NCBI GenBank assembly: GCA_025531455.1
Contig: JAMYHL010000067.1
Location: 62,001-126,000, forward strand
DNA: 64,000 nt
Source of the DNA: Apiotrichum sp. Y4204
Lineage: Eukaryota; Basidiomycota; Tremellomycetes; Trichosporonales; Trichosporonaceae
Direction: 5' to 3'
Shown: in pieces, positions 40,483 to 59,019 of the stretch
Numbering within the stretch: the first letter of the stretch is position 1
Layout of the letters: the number at the start of each line of letters is the position of its first letter
Notes under the pieces: generated by a model
Told to the model about the DNA's origin: nothing
Databases searched by the model: none
Seen by the model: only the letters and a program-made list of their open reading frames with translations
Made by a program: the position numbers and the translations under genes

Positions 40483-42807
40483 GATTGTCGTGATGCCAAG
40501 AGAGACTTTCGAGGCAATAGGATGACGAATTGAAAGGGACTAGCTTGAAGGAAAGAGTGGAGAGTTGTCGACCCTTATAATTCCATGGAGTCCATTCATG
40601 TTCTTGACGATTGAGGTCCTTCCAAGCATTCGATGACGGCGAGAAACGGATAAGGGTCGCCACCTAGAATAAGTCACGTGACCACAAGACCTTTACGTAA
40701 AAATTTGTTTTTTGTACGGCTTTTGATTCACGAGTCCACGAGATCACGAGACTACCCTCCCTCGATATCGCGATATTCACCATTCCATCTCCTAGGTACT
40801 GTATCCCACGAACACTTCGGTATCTCGAACACCTGAGAACGGACTGCATACTGCATATTACCTGGAATTGATAAATACACCAGAGCAAGGAATGGAAGAA
40901 CAGAAGAAGACGGTACACAAATCCACTTGATTCAGGAGACTTGACGCCCCGCAGGTCTGAGCTTTGCGACCCTGGCGGTTGGGTGTTTTCTAGTTGGGGA
41001 ATCCGAGCCGTTAGTAACGGCACCGGACATGCATACTGGATCATACTGGATATCCGCACCAATGGGGGCCTCTCCGGATAATGATACAGAGAATATGGGT
41101 ACCGCTAGGGGTCGGGGAACGGAGGAACAGCAAAACACTCCTCTCCTCGGTCTGGGTCCGAGACGAGACGACACTGCTGGACAAATGACCATCGAGATAT
41201 CGAGGGAGGGTGGAGCGGCCGGACCAGAGCACTCAAGGCAGTGCGCTGCAATGCGACCGCATCGGAGGAAGCTAGAAAACTCTAAAAATCAATTCATCAA
41301 GGATTGTGCCCATGTGCATCAACGACGACGGCGATCTGCGTGTGAGCGGTGCATGCCCACTTCATTCACTGATCTAATGATCTACAAGCTACAAGCCAGC
41401 TTTCGTGAAAGTTCTGGGTGTGCACATCGTTGCATGGTTGCACCGCCACTGACCAGACATTCTATCAGGGCACCTCACAGTCTCACAGTCGTCGAGAACA
41501 TGTGCTGCGCATAGCATCTTACCTTGAGTAGGGTCTTCAAGCACACTTCCGACATCATGCCCCGGCGAGACCAGGCCCGATTACAGTCAACTGTAGAGGC
41601 AGTGTGGGAAGCAAGTGAAACTGACGTTCACGTTTTCGCGAGCCCGAAGAGTAACGAGAGGGAGTGGGAGCCCTGTCGCCGTCGCACAACAGCACGGATC
41701 ACCTCCGTTGTCCTTCGTTGGTAGTCTGATGTCCACTTCATGACCGGTGTGGTGAGGACGATGAGCCTGTCCCCATGCATAACCTGAACGTGCTGTACAT
41801 GCAACATGCTTACAGCTTCCGGGCTTTGGACCTTGAAGGCTGTTGCGGCGGAGTACATCCTCTGGCTTGGCAATTCTCTGGCTTGGCAATGCGGAACCTC
41901 AGGTCGGCGACCCCAGGAACCATTTCACAAAGTCAAACCGGCACAGCCTTTTCAGGTTCGGGGTAAGCATGTAAGCATGTCTGCATCAGAATGCCGAGCA
42001 TGCAGCGAAGTCCACTGGCGCCCTTCGCTCTCTTTGTCGCCTGAAGAAAAACTCAGGACTGCAAACGATGATGAGGAACGAACAAGCTTTAAAACACAGT
42101 GCGGAAGCCCCTCGTCGTTCCCTTAACTCCTTGTCGCTTTGTCAGTCCTGTAGCGATGCCGTCACAAAAGTCGGCTGAATAGACAGTCTTCTCGTGCCTG
42201 GGCCGCCCCGCGGCGCCACCACTTCCGCCCTCTGAAGCATGCATACAGAGAAATGCCTCCTGGCCTCTTCCTACCTCCATCCCCTCATTGTGGTCTTTGG
42301 CCGTTTGGCCTTTGTCTCAGACTAGCTGCTCAGACGGGCTCGCCAAACAGCGGCATGTCGGCCCTGCCGAGGTGAGGAGCACGACGGCAGCTGCACAATC
42401 CGACTCATTTTGTTCCACAGCCCTTGGGCTGTGAGCAATGCGTGGGAGCGGAAGGGGCCTGGGGATCGGTCGTAACCTGTAGGACCATCCGCAACTCTTT
42501 GCGACGAGGAAGCGTGGCTTTGTGGACGTGGAGCTGGCCGAGAGGCAATCGACTGGTGGTCAGTTTCTTCCGCCGTTGGTTGCGTGTCTCGGCTGAGGGC
42601 AGAGCTGCTGGAGACTGGTGCTGTACGTGCTGTGAGACATCAATCGAGTCCAAGCTCAACTTCAGGCTCGGTCTTCCGCCGGAAAACAGGCAAACGCTTA
42701 ACGCTCTGAACCCATGCACACGAGCGGCGCGAGCGGGCCGAGATCTACCCACATGCACATCTTGCCCTGCTCTTGTCGTGGGCAAAGATCTTCTGTGCCG
42801 GAGCCGG
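40483..42807. other. Gene-free 2.3 kb region
   Basis: No gene supported. Contains only short overlapping open frames. The right end is the promoter of the secreted-protein gene. Confidence 0.5.
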
Positions 42808-42814
42808 TATAAAG
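42808..42814 (+). promoter_or_regulatory. TATA box
   Basis: TATAAAG, 84 bases before the ATG at 42892. Confidence 0.6.
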
Positions 42815-42891
42815 CCATAGCGAGGTCGACTGGCCCTCCAGCCCCGTCCCCACTTCACTACATCCCAAGCTACTTTCCAGGACTGTTCACA

Positions 42892-44330
42892 ATGCTTGCT
42901 GCTCTGTTCTCTGCAGCTTTGCTGCTATCTCCCGCTCTGTCGGCTGAGGAGTCTTTGAGGGCTTCTGGCAGTATTGTCGCGGCCAAGGATAACAACCCTC
43001 TCGGCGCCGTTTCCTTCGCCAACAACTTCCTTGCTGGTGGCGGCGACGACCTGTCGGCGTTGGCGCTCCTGGCGCCCGGCTCTCTTGCCCGCCGCGGCAT
43101 GAACGGCACACACATGCTCGAGGCCCGGCAGAACTATCGGTGCAACGATCCGGGATACGTCCCCTGCCCTGATCTCTTGGGGTGCAGGCCCCCTGACGGA
43201 ACCTGCTGTGGCAATGGTGAGTGGCCGCGTCGTTTCGGACGGATTGCAAGGCTGGTGCTAACTTCAGGTCGCTCCTGTTGGGCGGGCACTTGTAAGTTGC
43301 TGAGCGAGATGGTGACATGCTCTCACCAAGCATATGACACTTGACACTGATCGGAAGACTGTATGAGCACGTCAAAATGCTGCCCCGACGGCGAAGTCTG
43401 CTCTGGAGGAAGCGGAGGCGGTGGTGGTGGTGGACGGACGTGCAATGACCCAGGCTTCGTTCCCTGCCCCAACATCCCCAACAAGTGTGCACGTCCTGGA
43501 TCGACGTGCTGCAGTGAAAGTGAGCTATCCGGGCAGGACATTTGAGCAAACTAACAACCTAGCGGTCGCGTGTAGATCCGGCTCACGCTGTGTGCAGCAT
43601 CAGGACGGTTCAGCCGGCTGCTGCCCTAATGGCAAGAAGTGCTATGGGAATGACGACTACTACTGTCGAAACGACGCTCTGGTTCCTTGTGACGACTACA
43701 GTGGTTGTCGTACGACAACTGGTGTCTGCTGTGGTATGTTTGATAGTACTTGGATCAGGCCCTGCGCCGGCCAAACAGTCGTTGATGTCTGGAAGCTGAC
43801 ACCGCCCAGGAGACGGAACTTACTGCCCAAGCGGGTACGTTACAATGCCATGGGAGATTGTCATTTCTAACTTGAAGCTATTCATGCTCGGCTAATAATA
43901 AGTGTTGCCCCAATGGGAGAACCTGTGACGGTAGGTTTGGAGTCTTGCAGTCAGACTGCTTACCACAGGCAATGACAGCGGTGGTGGTGTCGCACCCCCA
44001 CGACTTTCGACTGCCACGGTGGACACTACATACACCTCTGAGGTCTACGAAACGTCAACCATTCAATCTTCTACATCCACTCGGGCCACGTCCTCTAGCC
44101 CCCCGATGGAGACGGAAACGCCCGAGTTCGAGCTGCCGGACACCCAAAACACTACTTCCTTTAGCCGCGCCATAGGCACGCCAACTGCTGCTCGACCCAC
44201 AAACAACCTGCCAACCCTCGCCGCAGCGCCAGCGCCGCCGAACATGCCCGCCAACGGCGCTGTGCGGGACTGTGTATCTGCCTTCTCGGCGGCCATGGGT
44301 GTCCTGCTCGTTGGTGCACTTGTCGTGTAA
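42892..44330 (+). CDS. Secreted GPI-anchored cysteine-rich repeat protein
   Basis: Exons 42892-43216, 43268-43291, 43358-43519, 43563-43733, 43810-43834, 43878-43930, 43969-44330; 373 residues. A signal peptide (MLAALFSAALLLSPALSA) and a pro-like segment ending in a dibasic site (LARRGMNG) precede three cysteine modules of the form C-N-D-P-G-[YF]-V-P-C-P ... TCC / C-R-N-D-A-L-V-P-C ... VCC, each followed by a second half-module (SCWAGTYC, VACRSGSRC, YCPSGYSC) and a CCP-[DN]-G motif. A Thr/Ser/Pro-rich stalk follows, then a hydrophobic C terminus (AMGVLLVGALVV), consistent with GPI anchoring. Two exons of 24 and 25 nt are required to keep the module pattern. Likely cell-wall or surface protein; ligand unknown. 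Unrelated to any toxin family I can identify. Confidence 0.85.
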
Positions 44331-46367: not shown

Positions 46368-48208
46368 ATGTACGCCAGCACATCCCGTGGTGCTGAGTCC
46401 GACTTTGATGGTGCCACCGCCGTTGACACTCCTCTCGGCCTTCGCCCTATGCCCCTTCCCAAGAATAGCGGCGAGTCCCGCTCCGCAAAGAGCATGGAAC
46501 CCATCAACGAGCTGCCAGCTTCCCTGCCCTTTGTGGACACTAACGACTACTTCCAGAAGGAAAGGTCAGTATCTGTGAGCAGTGATGCACTTGACGCCAT
46601 TCTCTAACGCCGCAGCTCGAATCTTCTCGTCCAGATTGGCCAGGGTGGTGTCCTCGAGGCCCTCCAAACTCTAGACCAAAGGCTCCGCGACGCCGGCCTT
46701 CCTGAGCTTATCTCGACAAAATCTCCACACGAGCTCATCGGTCGCGAAGTAAACCCCGGCTCCTTCGGTCTCTACGAGTATGCCTCGTCGCCCAAGCTTC
46801 TCCTCCAGCCTGGTCGCTACCCGGGCTTGCCGTTCTCCAACTGGATCGGATGCAGCTGGCAGGGTACTTTCGACATCTCGACCAACTTCCCGCCCCTTGA
46901 GCACAGGAGTGACCTTCTCGTTCCCAACGAGCGGCTTTCCAAGCTCGGTCTCACCATTGTTCAAGTGTCGCAGAACCAGGCGGCCGTTTGCCTCGACCCT
47001 CAGATGAGAGTGTTTGTTGTCTCGGACGGGGGCTTCGTCGCAATGGCCACCAAGGGAACGTACAAGGTGCTTGGCCTTGTTGACCAGACCCATTTGAAGG
47101 ATGCCGTGGTCGACAAGCACTCTAAGCAGGTGCTCGGTCACACCCAGACCGTCCGTCTCCCCAACGGCTACGTCGCTGCCACCTTCCTCGACATCCCCGC
47201 CAACAACATTGCTATCCTTCAGCGCGGAAACGAGCTCTACCAACTTACCGCCGGTCAGCACTACCTCACCACCCCCGGTGTCAGCATCCGGCAGTTCCTT
47301 ACTCTTGGTGAGGTGCAGCAGGAGCTCCAGGCGGACAACATTTACACTCGGTGAGTTTGAGCCATTCCTATGCGAGTGATTTACTGACATGTAGCGACTC
47401 AGTTCCCGTATGGCTCCGCATTTACCTGAGGTACCAGCTTCAGAAGCCTCTGCAGCTGGCCCGCCATGGTTATCCTACTCCCTTCGACGCTCTTCAGGAC
47501 AAGACACGTTCAATTCTCACGCAGATTGTCGCCCACCTCACGTACAGCAGTATGGCCCGTGCGCGCAATGCTGCGCCCGATGTTCATGAGGATGGCGACG
47601 AGGATGACGACCTGGGTGCCGTGTTTGTTTCGGCTGTCCGCACGCAGGCAATGGACGACCTCAAGGTTGTTGCCGCTGAGTATGGAATCAAGCTCGAGGA
47701 CTTGGCTATTATCGACCGCAAGTTCAAGGGTGAAATCGCTGCCAAGCTCGACAGCCTGACCACTCGTTCGCTCGAGGCGCAGGTCGAGTCAGCAAACCTT
47801 GATCGCGAGAATGCCAACAAGCGTCGTAAGCAGGAGGGTGAAGCCAAGGTCGTCGAGCTGCAGAACGCCATGTCGCGTGCCAAGATTGAGACCGATGCCT
47901 TCAACACCGTTGCCAAAGCCAAGGCTTGGGCCGACGCTCACATGATCGAGGCACAGGCGCGTGCCAATGCTACCAAGCTTCAGGCCGAGGCCGAAGCCGA
48001 GGCGGTCCGTGTTCAGGCCAAGATTGATGCGGAGATTCAGGACGAATTCGCCCGCTCCCTTGCCGCCAACCGCGTCGAGGTCCAGCGCACCAAAGCCTAC
48101 GGTTCGAACACTGTCTTCGCACCCATGGAGGCTCTCAACAATGGCGGCATGGTTGGCATGGGCCTCGCTCGCAACCACACCGTCTCGGGCGCTCACTCGC
48201 GCTCGTAA
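46368..48208 (+). CDS. SPFH/band-7 domain protein (flotillin-like)
   Basis: Exons 46368-46564, 46616-47350, 47395-48208; 581 residues. A hydrophilic N-terminal ~65 residues precedes a region without membrane helices. The band-7 core lies around residues 170-440 (MRVFVVSDGGFVAMATKGTY, NNIAILQRGNELYQLTAGQH, VWLRIYLRYQLQKP, AMDDLKVVAAEYGIKLEDLA). It is followed by a long Ala/Glu/Lys coiled coil (ARANATKLQAEAEAEAVRVQ), the standard SPFH-plus-coiled-coil layout that oligomerises on membranes. An Asp/Glu loop interrupts the SPFH region (DVHEDGDEDDDLG). Which subfamily (flotillin, stomatin or a fungal-specific group) is unclear. The first donor is GTCAGT. Well-expressed-looking codon use and a strong pyrimidine leader. 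Confidence 0.87.
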
Positions 48209-48660
48209 AGGATTGGAAACGTTACATCTCGTCCGAACCTGATTCGACAGTATCGATTGAGTGCCGAACGACATACCTTTAAACAAACAATTAAACGCCA
48301 GTGACGTCGATAGAGTTACGACCATAACCAACAATCTAATCAAATCGTTGAGCCCGAGTCACAGTAGGAAGCTCTTGTAGCAAGTGTAGTCATAGTACTG
48401 TTGAGATGCAACTGAAGTAAACTTGATTAGCCGTGCCACTTTGCAGCTTTTCGAAAATCTCTAGCCTATGGCAGGGTAGGGGAAAAAAGGAGGATACATA
48501 GGTCTTGCGCCTCTTATCTGGATCAAGAGGATTGCTACAGGGGAGTACAGAGTCAGGAGAAAGATGCTATCAGAAATGGCTCTCGGAGGAGCGGCTTAAA
48601 AGAGAGAGCGAAACGAAAAGCGCGTTGTGGAGAACGGCGAAACATTTGGAAGCTGTCGGC
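48209..48660. other. Convergent intergenic region
   Basis: The 3' ends of the band-7 gene and small Cys gene A face each other here. Nothing else recognised. Confidence 0.5.
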
Positions 48661-48875
48661 TTAGAGGCGGCGGTGGCAGTACTGGCAGCAAACAACGTTC
48701 TTGTTGTACCAGACGGGGAGGCACATTTCTTCCGTCAGCAACTCTTTAAACGGAACAGCGAAGAAAGACAAAACTTACGGCCGTTGTTGAAGCCCTTCTC
48801 GTTGCCAGTGCAGCCGAGGAGCCAGGTGTTCTTGGGAGCGGAGCCCGAGGCTTCGGCGTAGTTGGTGTAGGCCAT
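48661..48875 (-). CDS. Small cysteine-motif protein A, 54 residues
   Basis: Exons 48875-48779 and 48728-48661, phase-1 intron of 50 nt. The protein begins MAYTNYAEASGSAPKNTW and carries C22, C35, C46, C47 and C50; the end reads VCCQYCHRRL. Key spacing is C22-x12-C35-x11-C47-Q-Y-C50, with Pro-Val two residues after C35. No signal peptide or membrane helix, so probably intracellular; four cysteines could bind one zinc (inference). A minus-strand TATATAA sits 136 bases upstream. It matches proteins B (53192-53452) and C (50711-50889) in cysteine spacing, intron position and phase. Family not recognised. Confidence 0.78.
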
Positions 48876-50710
48876 TGTGAAGATGGATCTGTTGAGTTTG
48901 TGGTGGAGCTGGAGGGCTGGGAGTGCTGAGAGAGTTAAAAGCTAAAAGCAGGAGAGTTGTTGGGTTGGAGAGAGTTGTTGGAGGGAGGGAGTCGGGCCTC
49001 AGAGGTCTGTTTATATACACGAAAATGCGAAAGAGTCGCTGGACCTCCTCAGTTCGAAAACCTCCTCTAACATACACAACGTTGCCCTGTGTCGTCAACA
49101 GATACACGCTTGGTTGTTTCGTAATGGCAGATGGCCGATAGCAGATTGCCAGACCTGTGTGTGTGTGTTGCCGCGGAACGGTGCGAGCTCACACACACAT
49201 GTGACCAAGCCACGGGGACGTTATCTCGATCGCGTCTCACGTATCCTGTAGCATGTATCATGCATCCTGATATTTTCAGTCGTGTACAGTGCACGGTGGG
49301 AGCGGCGCCGTACTTGGGCTTCCAGACAGACGCGACTTGGTCTGAGACGGTCTGGACTCCGGACGTCGGAGTTCGGGGGTGCGGGACGATTGTGCCTTTT
49401 TGTGGGCGGGGTTGTTTCATGGCGGTGATAACAATAGGACGCGTCCAGGTCGTCGCACCCAGCGGGGCTGTCATGCTGTAAGAGATGCGGTACGTGGCAA
49501 TACCTGGTACCTTATATCCTTATGTCCGGTATCTGGATCAGGGCGAACAAAGACGCAACGCGTCCACTCGCACTCAATCTGAAAGAGACGACGGCAAAGG
49601 GAGCCGTCTGGCAGGCCGGTCTGGGCCCGAAGATTGACAAAGGATACGCCTCAGAAGCACTGGACAAAGGTCCACAGCGGGTGAGTACCCTTGACACACG
49701 ACGACATTTAGGCTTGTGCGTCGCAGTCTGTGACGCGTCCTCAGACCTCCGATCACCATTCAGCACTAAACAGTACAGTATGTAGGGAGCACAAAGGACA
49801 TGAGGACAATGATACAATGGGTTGATCTGCACCATTTGGTGCCACAGACCTCAATGCGAGCGGACCGCAGTTTTGGACGATCTGGATATCTGGAATGGAC
49901 GCACCGACACGCTTTGGCAAGCTCGCACTTAATTGCACTGACGTACTCAATATTAGTTTCACCCCGTCTGACGACCTGACACACCCTCCTATGCTTGGGA
50001 CGATTTTTGCTGAACGATCAACAAGTTCACATCCATTGTTGGCCCGCGTACGGCCCTTATACATGTGACTGCTGTGCACAGTACAATGAAAGCTCTGAAG
50101 TCCACACTCTCGGTTCCTCCTTGCAGCACTTGAGCCATTTCGGACTGCCGCCTAAGGGTCAACCGTTTCGTCATCCTGCAGCTCGGGCCAGCACCGTTTC
50201 CTGATTTCCTGAGGCCGGATCGATAAGTCACTGTTGACTACAGTACACTACGGGTGCTGTACTTGGAGGCCTGGAGACTTTTTTTCAAAGCCAAGAAAGT
50301 GGAACAGACACTCAAATGTACTGTATCCAAAAGGCCGGCCCTGGGGGACATGGACGAGCTGCGAGCACCAGTGTGATACTGTAGTACCAGTGTACTGGAA
50401 CACCAACACACCTGTGAGAGCTCTCACGCTCGGCCCTCCCCGGCCTTCCGGAGCTCCGGAAGTGTTACCTTGGACGGCTTCGATTTCTCTTTCGTTGTGC
50501 ACGCGTGCACGATCTCCTTGCTTCTCGGTATGACTGGTCAACAGTTATGATCATTGCGGTTCATACGTGTATATACAGAGGGTGGAGGATGAGAGACGCG
50601 ACTACTAAACGATCGGCGACGGGCCAACGGTCAAGTAAACATTATGGGATCGTCGCTATGCAAAGTTCTGTCGTCGCTAGAGGAGACGTGTTTGTTGGCT
50701 CTACTGCTGC
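48876..50710. other. Intergenic between small Cys genes A and C
   Basis: Contains the gene A promoter (TATA at 49011-49017). No further gene supported; I looked for another C-x-Y-C terminal exon here and saw none. Confidence 0.5.
49011..49017 (-). promoter_or_regulatory. TATA box of small Cys gene A
   Basis: TATATAA on the minus strand, 136 bases before the ATG at 48875. Confidence 0.6.
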
Positions 50711-50889
50711 CTAGTATGTACGGCCACAGTAACGGCAGCGCCAGTGGTAGTCGTAGTCGAGGATCGGGTCACACCAACCTGCTGTCAGTGAACGGATCTC
50801 GGGCACAAGAGTATGCAGGGCTCACCGCCGCGGTTGTACTCTGTCGAGGGGGCACCAACGCAACGGCGGGGGCTGCTAGGGGGGGTCAT
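50711..50889 (-). CDS. Small cysteine-motif protein C, 43 residues
   Basis: Exons 50889-50826 and 50778-50711, phase-1 intron of 47 nt with GTGAGC donor and CTGACAGCAG acceptor. The product has C10, C24, C36, C39: RCVGAPSTEYNRGG before the splice site, WCDPIL after it, and RCRYCGRTY at the end. The spacing C-x13-C-x11-C-R-Y-C and the intron two residues before the second cysteine match proteins A and B; exon 2 is 68 nt, exactly as in A. At 43 residues and split in two it falls below normal gene-finding limits, so its support is the family pattern rather than length. No TATA found upstream. It could be a decaying or silent copy, but no frame damage is visible. Confidence 0.6.
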
Positions 50890-53191
50890 TGGGAAAGGAG
50901 GTGATGGAGTAGAGGGGACGAGCGGTCCAGGCGGGATGTAACGGTGGGAGGAAGATGGGCAGCGACGGGCCGGGATTGTAAAGGTGAGGTGAGAGGGAGG
51001 GGGAGAACTTGTTGAGAGCTGTTTTCAGTGTCGAAGGATTAAGTACTGCAGAGGGTTGAGGTCTTTGTGGGGAACACTAGCACGGCGTTGTGTGTGCAGA
51101 ACTGTCGTGGTACAGTAGCTCAAACTCCCCAAAGGCCAAAGGATGGTGGCATCGTGAGGTGTGAAGAGCAACTGCCTTTCCTCGTCATACACTCCATACA
51201 TCCTGCATTCTGTCCAGTCCAGTGTCCGGCGTCATAGATCCATGGATTTCATGGAATCCCTACTGCGGGCTGCTGCTGCGCTACTACATACAGCATCTCA
51301 CACCTCCCAGGATCCCAGGATCTAGGACAGTCTGGACGCCAGGACTCTGGGCCAGCCAACCATGCGGCAATGCGGCCGCGGCATGCGGCACCACTGCCGC
51401 CGGCCAGCCGTCGCGCTCGTCGCGTCTCTAGGCCTCCCGTCTTCCTCCTTTCTCTTCCTGCATTCCGCTCTGCACCGTAGCGCGTTTCATCCCACATCCC
51501 ACATTCCACAACCTTTCGCACTCGCGCGCTCACTTGCCCGCCCGCGCGATGTCCGCTTGCGCGCTTGCACCCCCTGCCGCTTGTCCGCTCCAGCTTCCAT
51601 ATGCCATACACGTCGGCGAGTCTGCTCGTCGGGTGAGTCGCACGGTACTCGGGGTGGTCGTCCGGTCGGGCCTTGCGCGCCCTGCGCCCGTTTTTTGTAC
51701 AATTTTTGTGCCCGTGCGGTCACAGGTTCTGGACGTCCCGGTACTCCATGCCGGCGACGCCAGGAGAGCGCGAGAGGACGTGATACGTGCACGCAAAGCC
51801 CCTTGGTCAGCTGTCTGAAGCTGGCCAAAGCTGGCTATTTGCTACTAGCAGTAGTCCGAGCTTCTCGCGCGTCTCTTATGCTTTAGGCTCTCTGACGCCA
51901 GAGTAGCGTGATGCAAAAGTGGTGTAATCCCGCTCTTTGGCGCTTTTCTCTGTTGGGAGATTCGCGTCTCGTGCACGCGCCGATCCGAGCCTGCCCTGAG
52001 ACCTTGGCATCCTGGAGATCCTGATATCCTGGGCGCGCTGAGATCCCTCTTTTTTCCCTCTTCTCACGTGAAATCTGGGATCTGAGCTTTTGAGTAGCTG
52101 GATATCTGGATAAACGGTCTTTCGCCCTTTGACGGCCCTCGCCGCTATGAGGTTGCGAGTACATAACAAACCGTGAAGAATATGGAATATGGAATGGTGG
52201 ATGTGTGGACGCGCTGCGCTGCACAGATCATTTGATCGCTTTTTGTATGACCCAAACGGGCGAAGGAAGCCGACAGCGGACCGAGACATGTCTCTCCGCT
52301 TCACGGCCGTCGTCTAATCTCTGCAAAATGCCCCGAACAGTCGGAGTCGGAATATTGGTCTTCTGAAACTAGAACCACAGGACACGTAGCGCGGGCAGGA
52401 CGACAGAGGACTGCACGTGCACACGACCAACGCCGCTAAGAAGCAAGTTGTTAGCTTGGAATTTGGTTCACCCATGTCATGTGGGGGACTGGAGTCCGGA
52501 GTCCACTGTCCGTGCTCGAATGTGGGCTTCTGGGGCGGGGGGCACTGAGCATAGATCGTTTGCCACGAACTTTGACACTGTTTCCCCAAGAGCTCTATTA
52601 CTGCCAAACATCTTCAGTGGCAGTCCCTGAGGTGAGCGGAGTGACATGTGCCGTACGACCTACATATATGAAGCATTCCAGAATGTCGAGTCGGGCGGCA
52701 ACATCCTGAGATCCTAAGCGGTCCGCTGAGGCAGGGCGACAACATTGCCATTATGCTAACCGGATGACTGACTAGTCAGACGACCAGGGTTACCTGCCTG
52801 CATACCGAGAAGTGTCGGACCCTGGGACGGCAATCGAGGCCGAAATTGGGCGCAATTCAGTTGAGTCGGAAGCTATTGACACCTTACGTTACTGTTGACT
52901 GACGCTGTTGAATGTGGCAGCGGGGGTGCCACAAACACTCAATAAACAGCCATGCAGCCATGCCCGAACGCGACATCTGAAGACTTGAGGCAACGATATC
53001 CCACCCGGCCTCCCAAGTCGCTGACGCTGACTGACTTGTATGACCCTACGCCATCAGAGGCGTGTTCCTTCAAAGTTTCAAACAAACTCTCATAGTCTAT
53101 GAAATCAAAACTAAGCTCGTAGCCAGTATGGCACCAGGCCAACTGGGATCATCATCTGCGTCTGCCGAAAAGACTGCAGGAACCGGAGCGC
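50890..53191. other. Gene-free 2.3 kb between small Cys genes C and B
   Basis: No gene supported; open frames are out-of-phase and arginine/serine-rich noise. Short runs such as repeated GCGCG/CGCGCG at 51500-51560 are compositional only. Confidence 0.5.
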
Positions 53192-53452
53192 TTAGGCAGC
53201 CGCCTTGTACGCATCGATGTCGACCTTCTCCTCGCAGTAGAAGCAGATCCACATGTTGGCGTAGGTGATGGGGCAGTGCTCCTCTGGCCATCAGCCGTGC
53301 CGTTTGGTTGGTTACTAACCGTCCTTGTTAAGACCCATCTCGTCGCCCTTGCAGATAAGGGGGTTCTCCTCCTCCTCTCCCTCCTCAGGGATAGGAGTAA
53401 GGGGAATGGTGGGCGAGGTTCCGTTCTTGGTGGGGGAGTACTTCTTAGCCAT
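53192..53452 (-). CDS. Small cysteine-motif protein B, 74 residues
   Basis: Exons 53452-53320 and 53283-53192, phase-1 intron of only 36 nt (GTTAGT donor). The N terminus (MAKKYSPTKNGTSPTIPLTP) and an acidic run (EEGEEEEN) precede the cysteine core C34, C48, C58, C61: LICKGDEMGLNKD, then HCPITYANMW and ICFYCEEKVDIDAYKAAA. Spacing C-x13-C-x9-C-F-Y-C parallels A and C, with Pro-Ile after the second cysteine as in C. No targeting signal; predicted cytosolic or nuclear. A GATAAAAG element on the minus strand (53588-53595) lies about 137 bases upstream, the same distance as the TATA box of gene A. Function unknown. Confidence 0.8.
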
Positions 53453-54587
53453 TGTGGCTGCTTGCTGTGCGCTGGTGGTGGAGTAGTGGGCTTGGTGAGG
53501 TGGTGAGGAGCGCCGGCGGATGCGGCAGGTTGCAAGTAGCGAAGAGAGAGTTGAGAATTGGAATCCGCGGCTGTATTGGTAGAGCCGCTTTTATCTCTTG
53601 CAATAACAGCATGCTTGGCCATAGTTGGACCATGATGGGCGATGACGAGCAGGAGGAGACTTCACAATCTTGTCATGATGAACGATGAATGATGGCTGAT
53701 GGATAGCATGAATAGCGACGCGTGACGCTCGCGCGCGGCGCAAGGACATGAATACACACAGGTGAGTCGTTGAGCTTGCGGGCTCGAGGAGGAGATGCAC
53801 AGTTCGGCGTAGCCAGAAACCCGTAAAAACACGAGGAATGGAGGCCGGCACTGAGCATTCGCACGACGTATGCGACGTTCGCACCAACATGTACCCACGC
53901 GATCTTGCCATGATGCGAGATGGGATGATAGAAAACGACGCGTAACGCTCAAACACACGACGGATGACATGGACACACAGCTCCGAGTCCGAAAAATATG
54001 CGGGGCAGCTAAGGAGACAGCGTGCGACACACAATATACGGACGTTCGCACCGGGTGCGACTTTCGCACCGAAGGGTACTGTACCGGCGTCAGATATTTG
54101 TAGCTGCACACACCGCCGTCGACACTTCCGTTCTCGCACCCAGAAATACACCGGGACAGGGCAGAAAATGCGAACTTTGGTGGAATATTAGGATAGTACC
54201 CCGTCCCTCTTCCTTGTCCTGGGTCATTATGTTTCAAATGTCTCCGTGAGTTACGAAGCACCTATTCCTTACTCCCATCCTCTGAAACTCACTGGTCTAT
54301 TTGAGACACGCTTGCCTGTGTCGCGCGTTTCTCCATATCCCGCCTGTCGCCGAGGGAAGTTAACGTATGTCTACTTTTGTCAGTGAGGGTCATCAGTGAG
54401 AGTAAGGAGGAGCGTCAAGATGAATTGGTCTGCGACGCGGCCGGAAACAAGACAGACATGATACATGCCATGCCGTCAGACACTTCCAGTAGTCTTCCTT
54501 CTTTCTTGTTACACTTGTCATCACCACCAAAGACCCAAAGCTGGCACGTTCCTGTGCCGGACGCGTGACGCAAGACGCCTCCATAAC
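53453..54587. other. Intergenic with a diverged direct duplication
   Basis: Two related stretches, about 53712-53761 and 53931-53980, share CGACGCG-T-ACGCTC followed by GACATG-A-ACACACAG. Several TTCGCACC and GCGACGTTCGCACC copies occur at 53860-54075. No gene supported. Confidence 0.5.
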
Positions 54588-54591
54588 AAAA
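54588..54591 (-). terminator. Pol III terminator of tRNA-Ala(CGC)
   Basis: Four T on the minus strand about 27 bases beyond the tRNA 3' end. Confidence 0.5.
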
Positions 54592-54617
54592 GAAGAAGCA
54601 GCCTCTTAGAGACTGAG

Positions 54618-54703
54618 TGGACGAGTTAGGAATCGAACCAAAGACCTTTCCAACATCACAAGCTGATGCGAATGGAACGCTCTACCAACTGAGCTACACG
54701 CCC
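54618..54703 (-). tRNA. tRNA-Ala (anticodon CGC), intron-containing
   Basis: 86 bases folding as acceptor GGGCGTG/CTCGTCC with the G3-U70 alanine identity pair, D arm GCTC-AGTTGGTA-GAGC, anticodon stem TTCCA/TGGAA with CGC, a 13-nt intron after position 37, and T arm TTTGG-TTCGATT-CCTAA. The U6-U67 mismatch also occurs in yeast tRNA-Ala. Outside the anticodon arm and intron it is identical to the copy at 55007. Confidence 0.93.
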
Positions 54704-55006
54704 GACGGCGAGCGCGTTCCTGGGAGGGCTGCTGGGGATTTTGTGCTACTGATGTGGTTGCTCAAGTATCGAGCAGTGTTGGTTAGAAACAGAGGGCGAG
54801 TGGAATGAATTAATAGACGAACAGGGGAGATTACAGGGCTTCGGGACCTGCCTCGGTGCTCTTTGTATGATGCTGTCAGAAGACGTCCAAGTGGTCGAGG
54901 TGTGAGGGTTACGAGGGAAAGAGAAGGTGTGAGTGCGGAGTGAAGAGGATCGTCGTTCGAGTGGACAACGCCATCGCGATGCACCGCCCCCGACGCGACA
55001 TCCGTC
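54704..55006. other. Spacer between divergent tRNA-Ala genes
   Basis: 303 bases between the 5' ends of two tRNA genes facing away from each other. No other feature seen. Confidence 0.6.
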
Positions 55007-55106
55007 GGGCGTGTAGCTCAGTTGGTAGAGCGTGTCATTAGCAAGACGCGGCGACCCCGCGGTTCTTATCTTGACAAGGTCTTTGGTTCGATTCCTAACT
55101 CGTCCA
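55007..55106 (+). tRNA. tRNA-Ala (anticodon AGC), intron-containing
   Basis: 100 bases with the same acceptor (G3-U70), D, variable and T arms as the copy at 54618. The anticodon stem is TGTCA/TGACA with AGC, and a 27-nt intron follows position 37. Confidence 0.94.
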
Positions 55107-55771
55107 CTACGGCTTCTCTTGGAGGTCCTGTCCTTTTTCGGGTACCCAATGGTCGATGAGGGACAGAAGGAGGATGTTGAATTGTTGAATGAGTCTGCAG
55201 AGACGAGGGATCGTGTGGATCGGGAACAAATGGTCGGTTGCGTGATGGCGTGATCGTGCTGCCGCGTGACCGTGGGTGGAAGTGACAAGGTCCGTAGGCC
55301 CGTAGTGGCAGAAATGATGGATCAGGACAAGGTTGGGCGTCATTCTCCGGTGAGCAGTTAGTCGGGCAGCCCAGCATCGCTCGAGCAACTGGGTTACTGC
55401 ATGAAGGAGACCTGCCTGGACATCTGTTTCTAGTAGTGTGCGGCGGGATGCAGTGCTGATAAAGTTCAGGCGTGCGGCACTGTAATTCCGCGCTTGAGGC
55501 AGATAAGCATCGCTTCGGGAACAAGGTTTGCGATCTGCATCGGGAGACGATTGATTACTTGGCAACGTTGGAGCTCCCCGGCGATCAAGGTTTGGATGGT
55601 TGGGCGTTACGCTTGCACCAACTATATCATGTATGTCAATAATGCATGAATACAAAACGGTACGAATCTACACAATATACACTAAAGCTACTGTAGCGGT
55701 CTATGCCTGTATTTCTACGACACTCTTGTATCGTGTCTAACAATTGTATGCAGATGGTGCTGGAGAGACGA
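55107..55771. other. Intergenic, tRNA-Ala to hydrolase 3' end
   Basis: Begins with a pol III terminator (TTTTT at 55134-55138). No gene supported. Confidence 0.5.
55134..55138 (+). terminator. Pol III terminator of tRNA-Ala(AGC)
   Basis: Run of five T, 28 bases after the tRNA 3' end. Confidence 0.75.
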
Positions 55772-57382
55772 TTAGTCAAGGGCGGGTGGAGCCGACTTGA
55801 TCCTCTGGTCGAGGACACGGTTTGTAAAGCTCGGGTTGTCCAGGTATAGGTGGTGACCAGCATTGGGCACAACGTACGTCTTTACGTCCGTGTTGCCCTC
55901 CTTGGCCAGGATGCGTTGCGACATCCGGCCGCCCTCAACGTCCATCCAATCACCATCGCCGTACAAGAAGGTGACCGGCATGCGCAGCTTGTGGATGCGG
56001 TCGACAATCGGCATACGCGCATAGGCACCCGGGGCGAGGATGTGCGAAATGCAGAATTCGCCCGAACCCTTGAGGATCGATGTGGCATAGATGTACGAGT
56101 GCAGGTCGCGGATGTCGGCGGGGTCCTGGGAAGCAAAGCGGCGCGACGAGTACTTGCCGACAAGGAGCGGACCCCAGGGACCAAGACCACGAAGAATCGA
56201 GAACGGTGAGAGACCCTTCTCCCATCCCCAGAGGAATGCCTTGGTGAGACTGCGACGAACAAGAGACGCCTGGTGCTGCTGGGCACGGGCCATCTCCGCA
56301 TCACTGCGGGGGTCATGCATCTCCATTTCGGCGGCATCCGCAGCAGCGTCCAGCGAAGCCCGTGAGCTGGAGGTCTCGACGGGTTTGCCATCCTTCCACT
56401 CTTTGCCACCAGGGCCAGTCTGACCACGCGGGCCGAGGCCGGTCGGCGGAGTATCCGGTCCGTGGGGGATGCCAGCGGGCGACACGAGAATGAGGCTGCT
56501 CACGCGGTCCGGGTAGCGGAGAGCGTAGGCGGAAGCGAGGTAGCCGCCGAGCGAGTGGCCAACAAGGACCATGCGCTCGAGGCCCACGGATTCACGCCAT
56601 GACTCGAGGGAAGAGAGGAAGAAGTGCTCTGCGCGGGCAACACGAGCCTCGACGGGAGCGCCGGTCGGCGAGGCGAGGAGTGACGGGGAGGGACGCGATG
56701 AAACACCCATTCCTAGCCAATCGAGGAAGAATGTGCGGCGGCCGGTCGAAGCAGCAGAGTTTGCAATCGAGTCCCAGTTACGGAAGAAGAATCCAAAGGC
56801 GGCAGCGTATCCGTGAAGAACAACAACGGCTTCCTTTGAGTTTTCCAGGTCAGGACGAGAAATTTCGAGAGTGTTAATGTAGTCGACGAGTTCCCCATCG
56901 TGACACTTGGAGTTCAGCGTGAGGCGGCGACGTTTCTTCTCGAGGCTTGAGACAGACGACGAGGGCGACTCGGGCAGCTGGTCCGGGCGCTTCGGCGCCA
57001 TGTCGGGGTCAGGAGTAGGAATAAATACGCTCCGCAACGAGGCGACAAGTCCCGTTTCCGACGGGTTAGTAGGGGGAACCGGTGCGCTGTCGCTCGAAGC
57101 AGGAGCCGAGGCGAAAGAGAACCAGCCGCCTTTGGAGGGTGTTTCCGGCTGCGGGGTGAAGTAGCTCAGACGACGTAGGAGGCGCTCCTCGGCGACGCGG
57201 GCATCGCGGTATCCATTGGACGACCACCAGGCGGCGACGCTGCTCCGAAAGTCTGTGGGTATGGCGCGGGAAGGGGAAGGGGCGCGCGACTGTTGCGTCT
57301 TCTGTGAGTCGGATGTGTTAACGGGCGGAGCGAGGACGCCGCCGGAGGGCAGCGGCGTGGGCTGAGCGACAATGGCGGTCAT
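55772..57382 (-). CDS. Alpha/beta hydrolase, CGI-58/Cld1-Ict1 type
   Basis: A single exon; 536 residues from the only usable ATG (57382). The fold is visible as VVVLHGYAAAFGFFFRNWD (oxyanion loop, H190-G191), the nucleophile elbow GHSLGG (275-280), FLYGDGDWMD and the terminal HHLYLD (HX4D, 510-515). This set is typical of the CGI-58/ABHD5 and yeast Cld1/Ict1/Ect1 group, which deacylates cardiolipin or acylates lysophosphatidic acid. Inserts: a Ser/Pro-rich stretch before the fold and a lid insert with many Ala/Met/Glu residues. Upstream of the ATG the same frame stays open for 68 codons without one acidic residue (see findings). Lipid substrate not inferable. Confidence 0.9.
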   Translation of the reverse strand: MTAIVAQPTPLPSGGVLAPPVNTSDSQKTQQSRAPSPSRAIPTDFRSSVAAWWSSNGYRDARVAEERLLRRLSYFTPQPETPSKGGWFSFASAPASSDSAPVPPTNPSETGLVASLRSVFIPTPDPDMAPKRPDQLPESPSSSVSSLEKKRRRLTLNSKCHDGELVDYINTLEISRPDLENSKEAVVVLHGYAAAFGFFFRNWDSIANSAASTGRRTFFLDWLGMGVSSRPSPSLLASPTGAPVEARVARAEHFFLSSLESWRESVGLERMVLVGHSLGGYLASAYALRYPDRVSSLILVSPAGIPHGPDTPPTGLGPRGQTGPGGKEWKDGKPVETSSSRASLDAAADAAEMEMHDPRSDAEMARAQQHQASLVRRSLTKAFLWGWEKGLSPFSILRGLGPWGPLLVGKYSSRRFASQDPADIRDLHSYIYATSILKGSGEFCISHILAPGAYARMPIVDRIHKLRMPVTFLYGDGDWMDVEGGRMSQRILAKEGNTDVKTYVVPNAGHHLYLDNPSFTNRVLDQRIKSAPPALD

Positions 57383-59019
57383 CGCGGCGATGGACCGGGT
57401 AAAACGAAAAGTTGAGAGGAAGAGTGGGTGGCGACCTATGGAAGCGCGAGTGGCTCGGAGCCCGAGTCGAGACAACAATTTGAATGAGAGCCGACGCCGG
57501 AAGATGGTGGCGAACTGTGGGATGAAGCTTTGTGATCTTGCTCGATATCGAAGCGACTGTCTTATTATAGTCCTGTGGTAAGTCACTGCGGTTGACTCAG
57601 AAGACGGATTTTAGCTTTAGCTGGCTGTGCCCGGTGATTATTGACTTTTGCAGTGCTTTCCGGGGGGGGGGGGGGGGGGGGAGGCTGTCATGAGCCAAAA
57701 TAAACGATGGAAGGAGGAGCCCGACGGTCTCGGCAGATGCCCGGGGGGTTGGAGTACCCTCTGGTCCTCCACCCCAACACCCGGCGGGCAGACGCGGTGG
57801 GATCTACGTTCCTCTGGTACCTGGTACTGGGGTACATCTTTTGGGTTTTGGTTATCGTGGGCTGCCTGAGGGTGCCGGCGCGCTGATGCATTCGCCAAGC
57901 TGCTGGCCTCTCGGCCCGGAGGGCATGGCAACTTCGGCGGCCAGGCTGGAAGCCGAGGAGAGGAGTAATAAGCAGAGCGGAGCAGCCCGGCGGAAAGGGC
58001 AAAGTGGATGCCCATCGGCGAGTTCTTGGGACCATGCCCAGACCTTAACAACCTATTCAGTCCTTTGGAAGCTCTGAGGCGATCAGTACACGTCATTCAC
58101 ACTCGACCTCAGTGGCGCAAAATGACGTCGGCCCACAACCTTGACGGGCATAGCTGGCCTCAACTGGCCGACTGGGCTTGATTCGGCTTGATCTTGCGAT
58201 CTTGAAAACGCGATAGCCGTGTGACCTGCACGCGATGTTTCAGACAATCAAACTAGTACCGCGTATCCCGAAGAAAGAGCCAGCCATCGCGCCATCGAGA
58301 AACGCAAAACATGACGTTTGGACCCAGCGATCCAATGATCTCCAGATCGCTCGATCGCCGGTTTACTCCCGTTCAAAGTGGGGGGCATGTTTGAGAAGTG
58401 TAGCCGGGTTTCCTACGAGGTGACAGTCACATTATTAGTGGTGGCCGGTGGATTTATGCGCGGACGGCGTTTTTCGGGACTGGCGCACGCCACAGTGAGA
58501 GAATGAATGATGGCATCTGACTGGCCATCCCGTGCCAGCCATGACATTGAGAGTGGGCCATGGGATGGATTGCAGGCCGTGGCAGCAACAGATTGGAGAT
58601 AGAGCGCGAGCTTGGCACAATTAGTGGGTGGACAGTTGGGTTGCAACATATCTGGGCTGTCTGGGGTCTTTGCGAATTCCAAAGGCAGTTTGGTAGTCGG
58701 TGTACTCTGTACTGCAGGGAGGAGAGCCGGCAGGCACAGATGGAGATGCGTCATGATTCGAGGAAATCGAGGAGAAAAAGGGGCGGAGTGGGGGCGTTCC
58801 GGGCTCACCGTGTGCACTCCGAGTGTGCGGTGGGTGGGGGCTCAGATCTCAGATGGCAGGACAGGATAGGCGGAGGAGTTCATTTCATCAGCCCCAAGCC
58901 AGCGCTTGTCACTTTGGACATCCGTCTTCGTCTTCGAAACACCCCAACCACCACTTCACTCTCGCAGCCGTGCGTACCTTGCAGCAGCGTGCCGCGCACG
59001 TAACTAACGTCCGCAGACA
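57383..59019. other. Intergenic, hydrolase promoter to ADK1
   Basis: Includes an open extension of the hydrolase frame (57383-57586), a G homopolymer (57662-57681), and otherwise no supported gene. Confidence 0.5.
57662..57681. repeat. Poly-G homopolymer, about 20 G
   Basis: An uninterrupted run of 20 G on the plus strand, the longest homopolymer in the window. Confidence 0.9.

Follow-up and report, generated by a model that had tools for sequence, protein, structure and literature searches.

A putative family of four-cysteine microproteins with a shared intron position in Apiotrichum sp. Y4204

In a 64,000-nucleotide stretch of the tremellomycete Apiotrichum sp. Y4204 (contig JAMYHL010000067.1, positions 62,001 to 126,000, or G000:C147:62001-126000 in our numbering; hereafter the window), which belongs to a 48.9 Mb genome in 182 contigs, three very small genes that we call A, B and C lie side by side on the minus strand, and a fourth, D, is found on other contigs. 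The cysteine motif C-x(12,13)-C-x(9,11)-C-x-Y-C is present in all four proteins and in all four of their second copies, and by sequence the genes have in common one phase-1 intron, located one to three residues before the second cysteine. The substitutions between copies indicate that A to D are real genes under constraint at the protein level. Within the open-access literature and the databases that we searched, they apparently represent an undescribed family of microprotein genes, larger than the cluster in the window. We propose, with a probability of roughly 0.6, that A to D form one family of intracellular, adaptor-like microproteins in which four cysteines (Cys4) would hold a single zinc ion and the core would serve for docking.

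Gene models and their conservation in a second copy of the region

The gene models were obtained by listing the GT-AG and GC-AG splices that yield open reading frames (ORFs) with at least four cysteines; the chosen ones were preferred for their consensus donor and their spacing, other splices being possible by sequence. The original prediction had described three tiny two-exon genes with four aligned cysteines, and its description was recovered in full for A, B and C: splice enumeration gave a single phase-1 GT-AG intron per gene at the predicted place (Table 1), and the cysteine positions and spacings, the Pro followed by Val or Ile after the second cysteine and the Asn before the splice codon were all re-derived from the sequence. 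The C-x-Y-C knuckle comes after an aromatic residue, W, in B, C and D (W-x-C-x-Y-C); in A it follows V-C.

We observed that the window aligns almost entirely (1-64000) to another contig of the same genome, C2, at about 747300-811700, in nine long pieces with 87-96% identity; the genome thus carries two diverged copies of this region. With its 48.9 Mb, it looks like that of a hybrid or of a highly heterozygous diploid. Interspecies hybrids have been reported in Trichosporonales, and the accessible part of one report names T. coremiiforme, T. ovoides and C. mucoides (PMC12820176).

At C2, the start, the stop, the intron position and the phase of A, B and C are all kept. The C protein is identical in the two copies (43/43 residues, with 4 synonymous changes), B differs by the sole change A69L (73/74 identical) and A by residues 7 and 8 (52/54 identical), all of these outside the cysteine core. 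In the introns of the three genes, 13 of 133 sites have changed, with one 2-base indel in A. Between the two copies of A to C, 11 substitutions are synonymous and 4 non-synonymous (P = 6e-5 at kappa 2). When D is added, the pooled figures become 18 synonymous against 4 non-synonymous, with P of about 1e-8 under neutrality, the neutral fraction being taken from A to C and the stop codon of A, which changed from TAA to TAG, being excluded. A close relative, here the second subgenome, thus keeps the cysteine spacing at this locus; its loss was one of the outcomes named in the original prediction as fatal to the proposal.

The chance rate of the architecture was estimated by a strict scan for two-exon ORFs with C-x(10,15)-C-x(7,13)-C-x2-C across an intron of 35-95 nucleotides. 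On both strands of the 64 kb, four loci were found, and the three of them with C-x-Y-C are A, B and C only. Thirty dinucleotide shuffles gave on average 0.7 loci (maximum 3), and 0.03 (maximum 1) with C-x-Y-C. In the C2 copy (78 kb) the same scan gave six loci, with C-x-Y-C in the same three genes; each of the remaining loci, one in the window and three in the C2 stretch, is confined to a single copy. A looser scan, in which every GT donor was allowed and the spacing was widened, returned 14 loci in the window, three of them with C-x-Y-C, and 19 in the C2 stretch, four of them with C-x-Y-C, the extra one being of low complexity. A candidate at 54458 was dropped, as it is not conserved in the second copy. 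Since the scan criteria come from the original description, this test is post hoc and serves as a consistency check; the conservation between copies is the independent test.

A dispersed fourth gene and the kinship of A to D

The fourth gene was found through the pattern W-x-C-x-Y-C. Two of its matches in the genome are genes B and C of the window; the neighbourhoods of the other 97 (L005-L101) were submitted to the two-exon scan. Beside the copies of B and C, one locus pair was retained in both subgenomes, on C18 and C180 (L015 and L101; Table 1). It encodes a protein of 96 residues with C-x12-C-x11-C-W-Y-C and has a 43-nucleotide phase-1 intron two residues before the second cysteine. The two copies of D encode identical proteins, all 7 codon changes being synonymous and none non-synonymous. 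Other loci were set aside. L058, whose core ends in a C-x-Y-C knuckle, is kept by the strict scan with an intron in phase 2, and its partner L038, which has the same 18-base match, is without such a cysteine. In L048 and L069, C-x-Y-C lies inside the model, but the matched C-x2-C is a different one. The strict C-x2-C scan also accepts L020, L034, L037 and L079 and, next to gene B, parts of L003, L004 and L011, all of which lack the motif and were not kept.

A search with this pattern misses any member without the W or the Y, as is the case for A, so that the number of genes found is a minimum. In protein searches of the genome itself, each gene found itself and its second copy only, apart from a weak match of C (L118, expectation value, E, 0.17). 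With a consensus sequence as query, nothing was matched other than exon 2 of A, exon 2 of B and the corresponding exons in the copies of these two genes.

Residues other than cysteines also connect the genes. The exon-1 loops read CNGDRKGRNEG in D, CTGNEKGFNNG in A and CKGDEMGLNKD in B, that is, they follow the pattern C-x-G-x3-G-x-N-x-[GD]. An exon-1 core likeness as good was reached by 33 (A), 121 (B) and 89 (D) shuffles per 100000. Since the selection of D relied on its knuckle and architecture, the exon-1 loop of this gene provides a fresh test. The exon-2 knuckle, in a test that includes the motif Tyr, also scored well for B (42 of 20000 shuffles as good) and D (66). Common ancestry of A, B and D is thus well supported by sequence likeness in the loops, outside the cysteines. 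C probably belongs to the family, as judged from its spacing, the position and phase of its intron, its W-x-C-x-Y-C and its location. The origin from one ancestor that had been suggested for the cluster is accordingly well supported by loop residues for A and B, and extends to D, and for C it is backed by architecture and location only. As to the tandem arrangement, A, B and C do stand side by side on one strand; this picture was incomplete, because D on other contigs makes the family a dispersed one.

We searched for relatives of these proteins in several collections. In Pfam, A, B and C had no match at full length and D touched LPD24 at 12.7 bits (cut-off 27); with the cores as queries, A and B had none and C touched zf-C2HC_2 at 9.7 bits (cut-off 27). 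No match was found in NCBIfam for any of the four. In a protein database, B alone gave no candidate and the A-B-C alignment gave one candidate and none at E <= 10. As a control, the neighbouring alpha/beta hydrolase was run in the same database: 281 proteins were found among 7994 candidates scored, and the matches listed include proteins of Cutaneotrichosporon, Vanrija, Cryptotrichosporon and Trichosporon asahii. The database thus covers the order Trichosporonales, and the negative result for A to C means that they have no close homologue among predicted proteins, which is not absence from genomes. Two non-fungal collections, of viral contigs and of prokaryote genome contigs, contained no relative, and we found no description of such proteins in the open-access literature. 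The original statement that no family with these features was known agrees with the searches of Pfam, NCBIfam and PDB for A to D and of the protein database for A to C. According to the accessible part of a study of Trichosporon hybrids, genes of less than 100 residues were discarded in its annotation (PMC6642101), and genes like A, B, C and D would be removed by such a step.

Upstream signals and genomic neighbourhood

Table 1 Positions of the genes A to D, their elements and neighbouring features (window coordinates unless a contig is named)
Feature	Position	Strand	Details
Gene B	53192..53452	minus	74 residues; exon 1 53452-53320, exon 2 53283-53192; C34, C48, C58, C61
Intron of gene B	53319-53284	minus	36 nucleotides, phase 1, GTTAGT..CAG
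Candidate GATAAAAG element of B	about 143 bases before ATG		consensus match
Gene C	50711..50889	minus	43 residues; exon 1 50889-50826, exon 2 50778-50711; C10, C24, C36, C39
Intron of gene C	50825-50779	minus	47 nucleotides, phase 1, GTGAGC..CAG
Gene A	48661..48875	minus	54 residues; exon 1 48875-48779, exon 2 48728-48661; C22, C35, C47, C50; additional cysteine C46
Intron of gene A	48778-48729	minus	50 nucleotides, phase 1, GTAAGT..AAG
TATA-box-like site of A	49012..49017	minus	142 bases before ATG; consensus match, kept in second copy
Gene D, copy L015	~G000:C18:57632-57965	minus	from two-exon scan of W-x-C-x-Y-C matches
Gene D, copy L101	~G000:C180:74852-75185	minus	from two-exon scan of W-x-C-x-Y-C matches
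SPFH-like frame	47312-48208		Band_7 below cut-off
Transfer RNA (tRNA) gene	54618-54703	minus	Rfam; not listed by ARAGORN (bacterial setting)
tRNA gene	55007-55106	plus	Rfam; not listed by ARAGORN (bacterial setting)
Alpha/beta hydrolase	55772-57610	minus	near fungal proteins, some named cardiolipin-specific phospholipase

In addition to the sites listed for A and B, D has a TATA-like site 260 bases upstream in its C18 copy. The start contexts, CACA-ATG in A and B and CCCA-ATG in C, fit fungal starts. The share of codons ending in C is 0.88 in A, the highest of the frames compared, 0.69 in B and 0.70 in C; in seven frames of larger genes it ranges from 0.43 to 0.76, the last value being that of a frame which we take to be adenylate kinase. 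The codon use of A, over only 54 codons, together with its TATA-like site, suggests that this gene may be abundantly expressed and regulated.

Between the SPFH-like and hydrolase frames (48209-55771, about 7.5 kb), only A, B, C and two tRNA genes were identified, without a full gene prediction; both tRNA genes sit between the cluster and the hydrolase gene. Most 100-base blocks of this interval are 0.8-0.98 identical between the copies, and they are less similar near 54000. The hydrolase is most similar to proteins of Trichosporonales. Its best match is a 99% identical unnamed protein (P0001) on a 2.5 kb contig; among the matches listed, its closest named relative is from Cutaneotrichosporon oleaginosum (65%), and the T. 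asahii protein is 54% identical. Elsewhere in the window, two adjoining cysteine-rich frames at 42376-43870 (plus strand) resemble each other in their Cys-rich parts and match no Pfam family at E 0.01; inspection by eye suggests a single secreted multi-exon gene.

Proposed nature of the proteins and comparison with known systems

We propose that A, B, C and the dispersed D arose by duplication of an ancestral gene whose single phase-1 intron lay shortly before the codon of the second cysteine. Each protein would have an N-terminal tail that varies between members, followed by a cysteine core of roughly 28-30 residues. In this core, the first two cysteines and the C-terminal C-x-Y-C knuckle would most likely bind one zinc ion as a Cys4 site, since four fixed cysteines and such a knuckle occur in chains that are too short for an extensive hydrophobic core; the zinc site would allow folding despite the small size of the chain. 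Once folded, the core would most likely dock on a partner protein or nucleic acid in the manner of an adaptor, and the divergent tails would make the partner or the regulation specific to each paralogue. The combination of a conserved core and diverging tails is consistent with such a docking module.

Several observations weigh against this proposal. Alternative acceptors are possible by sequence in A (a 35-nucleotide intron, 59 residues) and, 3 nucleotides upstream, in C (44 residues). No zinc-finger family of Pfam exceeds its threshold for any of A to D; a PDB profile search with A-B-C gave three non-significant matches and, once D was added, none at E <= 10; we know of no zinc finger with the order long gap, long gap, CxxC. 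The conservation comparison relies on one relative only, within the same genome. The pattern that led to D has 99 matches in the genome versus 73 for its control, a slight excess, so that most matches are due to chance. The A knuckle in exon 2 is weakly better than shuffles (830/20000 as good). As for C, it shares few loop residues with the others and has no counterpart of the second Gly found in the loops of A, B and D; 1063 of 5000 shuffles were as good for its exon-1 loop and 1169 of 20000 for its exon-2 knuckle, which is why its membership is held as probable, on architecture.

These last figures fit a reading in which A, B and also D are related and C is an unrelated small gene that matches the pattern by convergence or chance. 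We consider this unlikely, because C, which sits between A and B, has in common with them its strand, spacing, W-x-C-x-Y-C, C-x-P-I and the position and phase of its intron, an architecture with a low chance rate, and because its protein is unchanged in the second subgenome despite the synonymous changes. It is hardly credible that the ORFs are artefacts of reading and not genes: such an artefact would explain why no homologue of A to C was found in the protein database, but not the synonymous excess, the kept introns and the identical architecture in the second copy.

The proteins might also be buffers or sensors of zinc or another metal, induced by metal or stress and similar to metallothioneins in function. 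The cysteines are indeed the most conserved feature across the paralogues, and TATA-like elements at A and possibly B fit inducible genes. This nevertheless appears rather improbable, as the proteins have 4 to 6 cysteines at fixed spacing (4/74 residues in B, 4/43 in C, 5/54 in A and 6/96 in D), far fewer than metallothioneins, and as the three 700-base promoters, in either copy, contain no match to the patterns known to us for copper (Mac1/Cuf1-like) and zinc (Zap1-like) sites and no word of 8 or 9 bases that the three share in both copies. More doubtful are disulfide-bonded peptides, extracellular or targeted to a compartment, with a role as effectors, in defence or in the cell wall. Small size, paired cysteines and divergence of paralogues are common in such peptides; however, inspection by eye revealed no hydrophobic N-terminal signal in A, B, C or D, B, C and D have their C-x-Y-C after an aromatic residue, as metal knuckles typically do, and conservation between the subgenomes is near-total, unlike that of fast-evolving secreted peptides.

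Going beyond the single-zinc adaptor proposal itself, we give about even chances to an undescribed, order- or genus-specific family of strongly constrained single-zinc microproteins, with the new topology C-x12/13-C-x9/11-C-x-Y-C, that is missing from protein annotation and of which a single motif has revealed no more than A to D. If true, constrained and probably metal-binding microproteins would be hidden below the annotation length cut-off in Trichosporonales, an order described, in the accessible part of the source, as including opportunistic pathogens and oil yeasts. The exact motif and gene structure could then be used as a search query, and the small Cys4 domain would be simple enough for direct structural work.

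Conserved fungal proteins of up to 80 residues overlooked by gene prediction have been described (PMC7394265); they were searched for by getorf and sORFfinder, and the accessible part of that report names no family with the motif of A to D. Among known structures, the zinc-ribbon knuckles of the 60S ribosomal protein L37a resemble our proteins by an aromatic-x-C-x-x-C knuckle; the A-B-C profile matched the second of them at a non-significant E of 2.7, and with D added nothing was found at E 10. Zinc fingers usually have two short Cys pairs, C-x2-4-C, and classic zinc ribbons two CxxC knuckles, whereas in A to D 12-13 residues separate the first two cysteines and only the second pair, C-x2-C, is short. 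The RanBP2-type, A20 and AN1 zinc fingers are similar in that they are short Cys4 domains ending in C-x2-C, often with W-x-C; their first pair is 2-4 residues apart, unlike that of A to D, and no Pfam model came near its cut-off. Metallothioneins, finally, are likewise tiny intracellular cysteine proteins; they are rich in cysteines arranged in CxC or CC clusters, whereas A to D combine too few cysteines for this class with a fixed spacing and aromatic residues.

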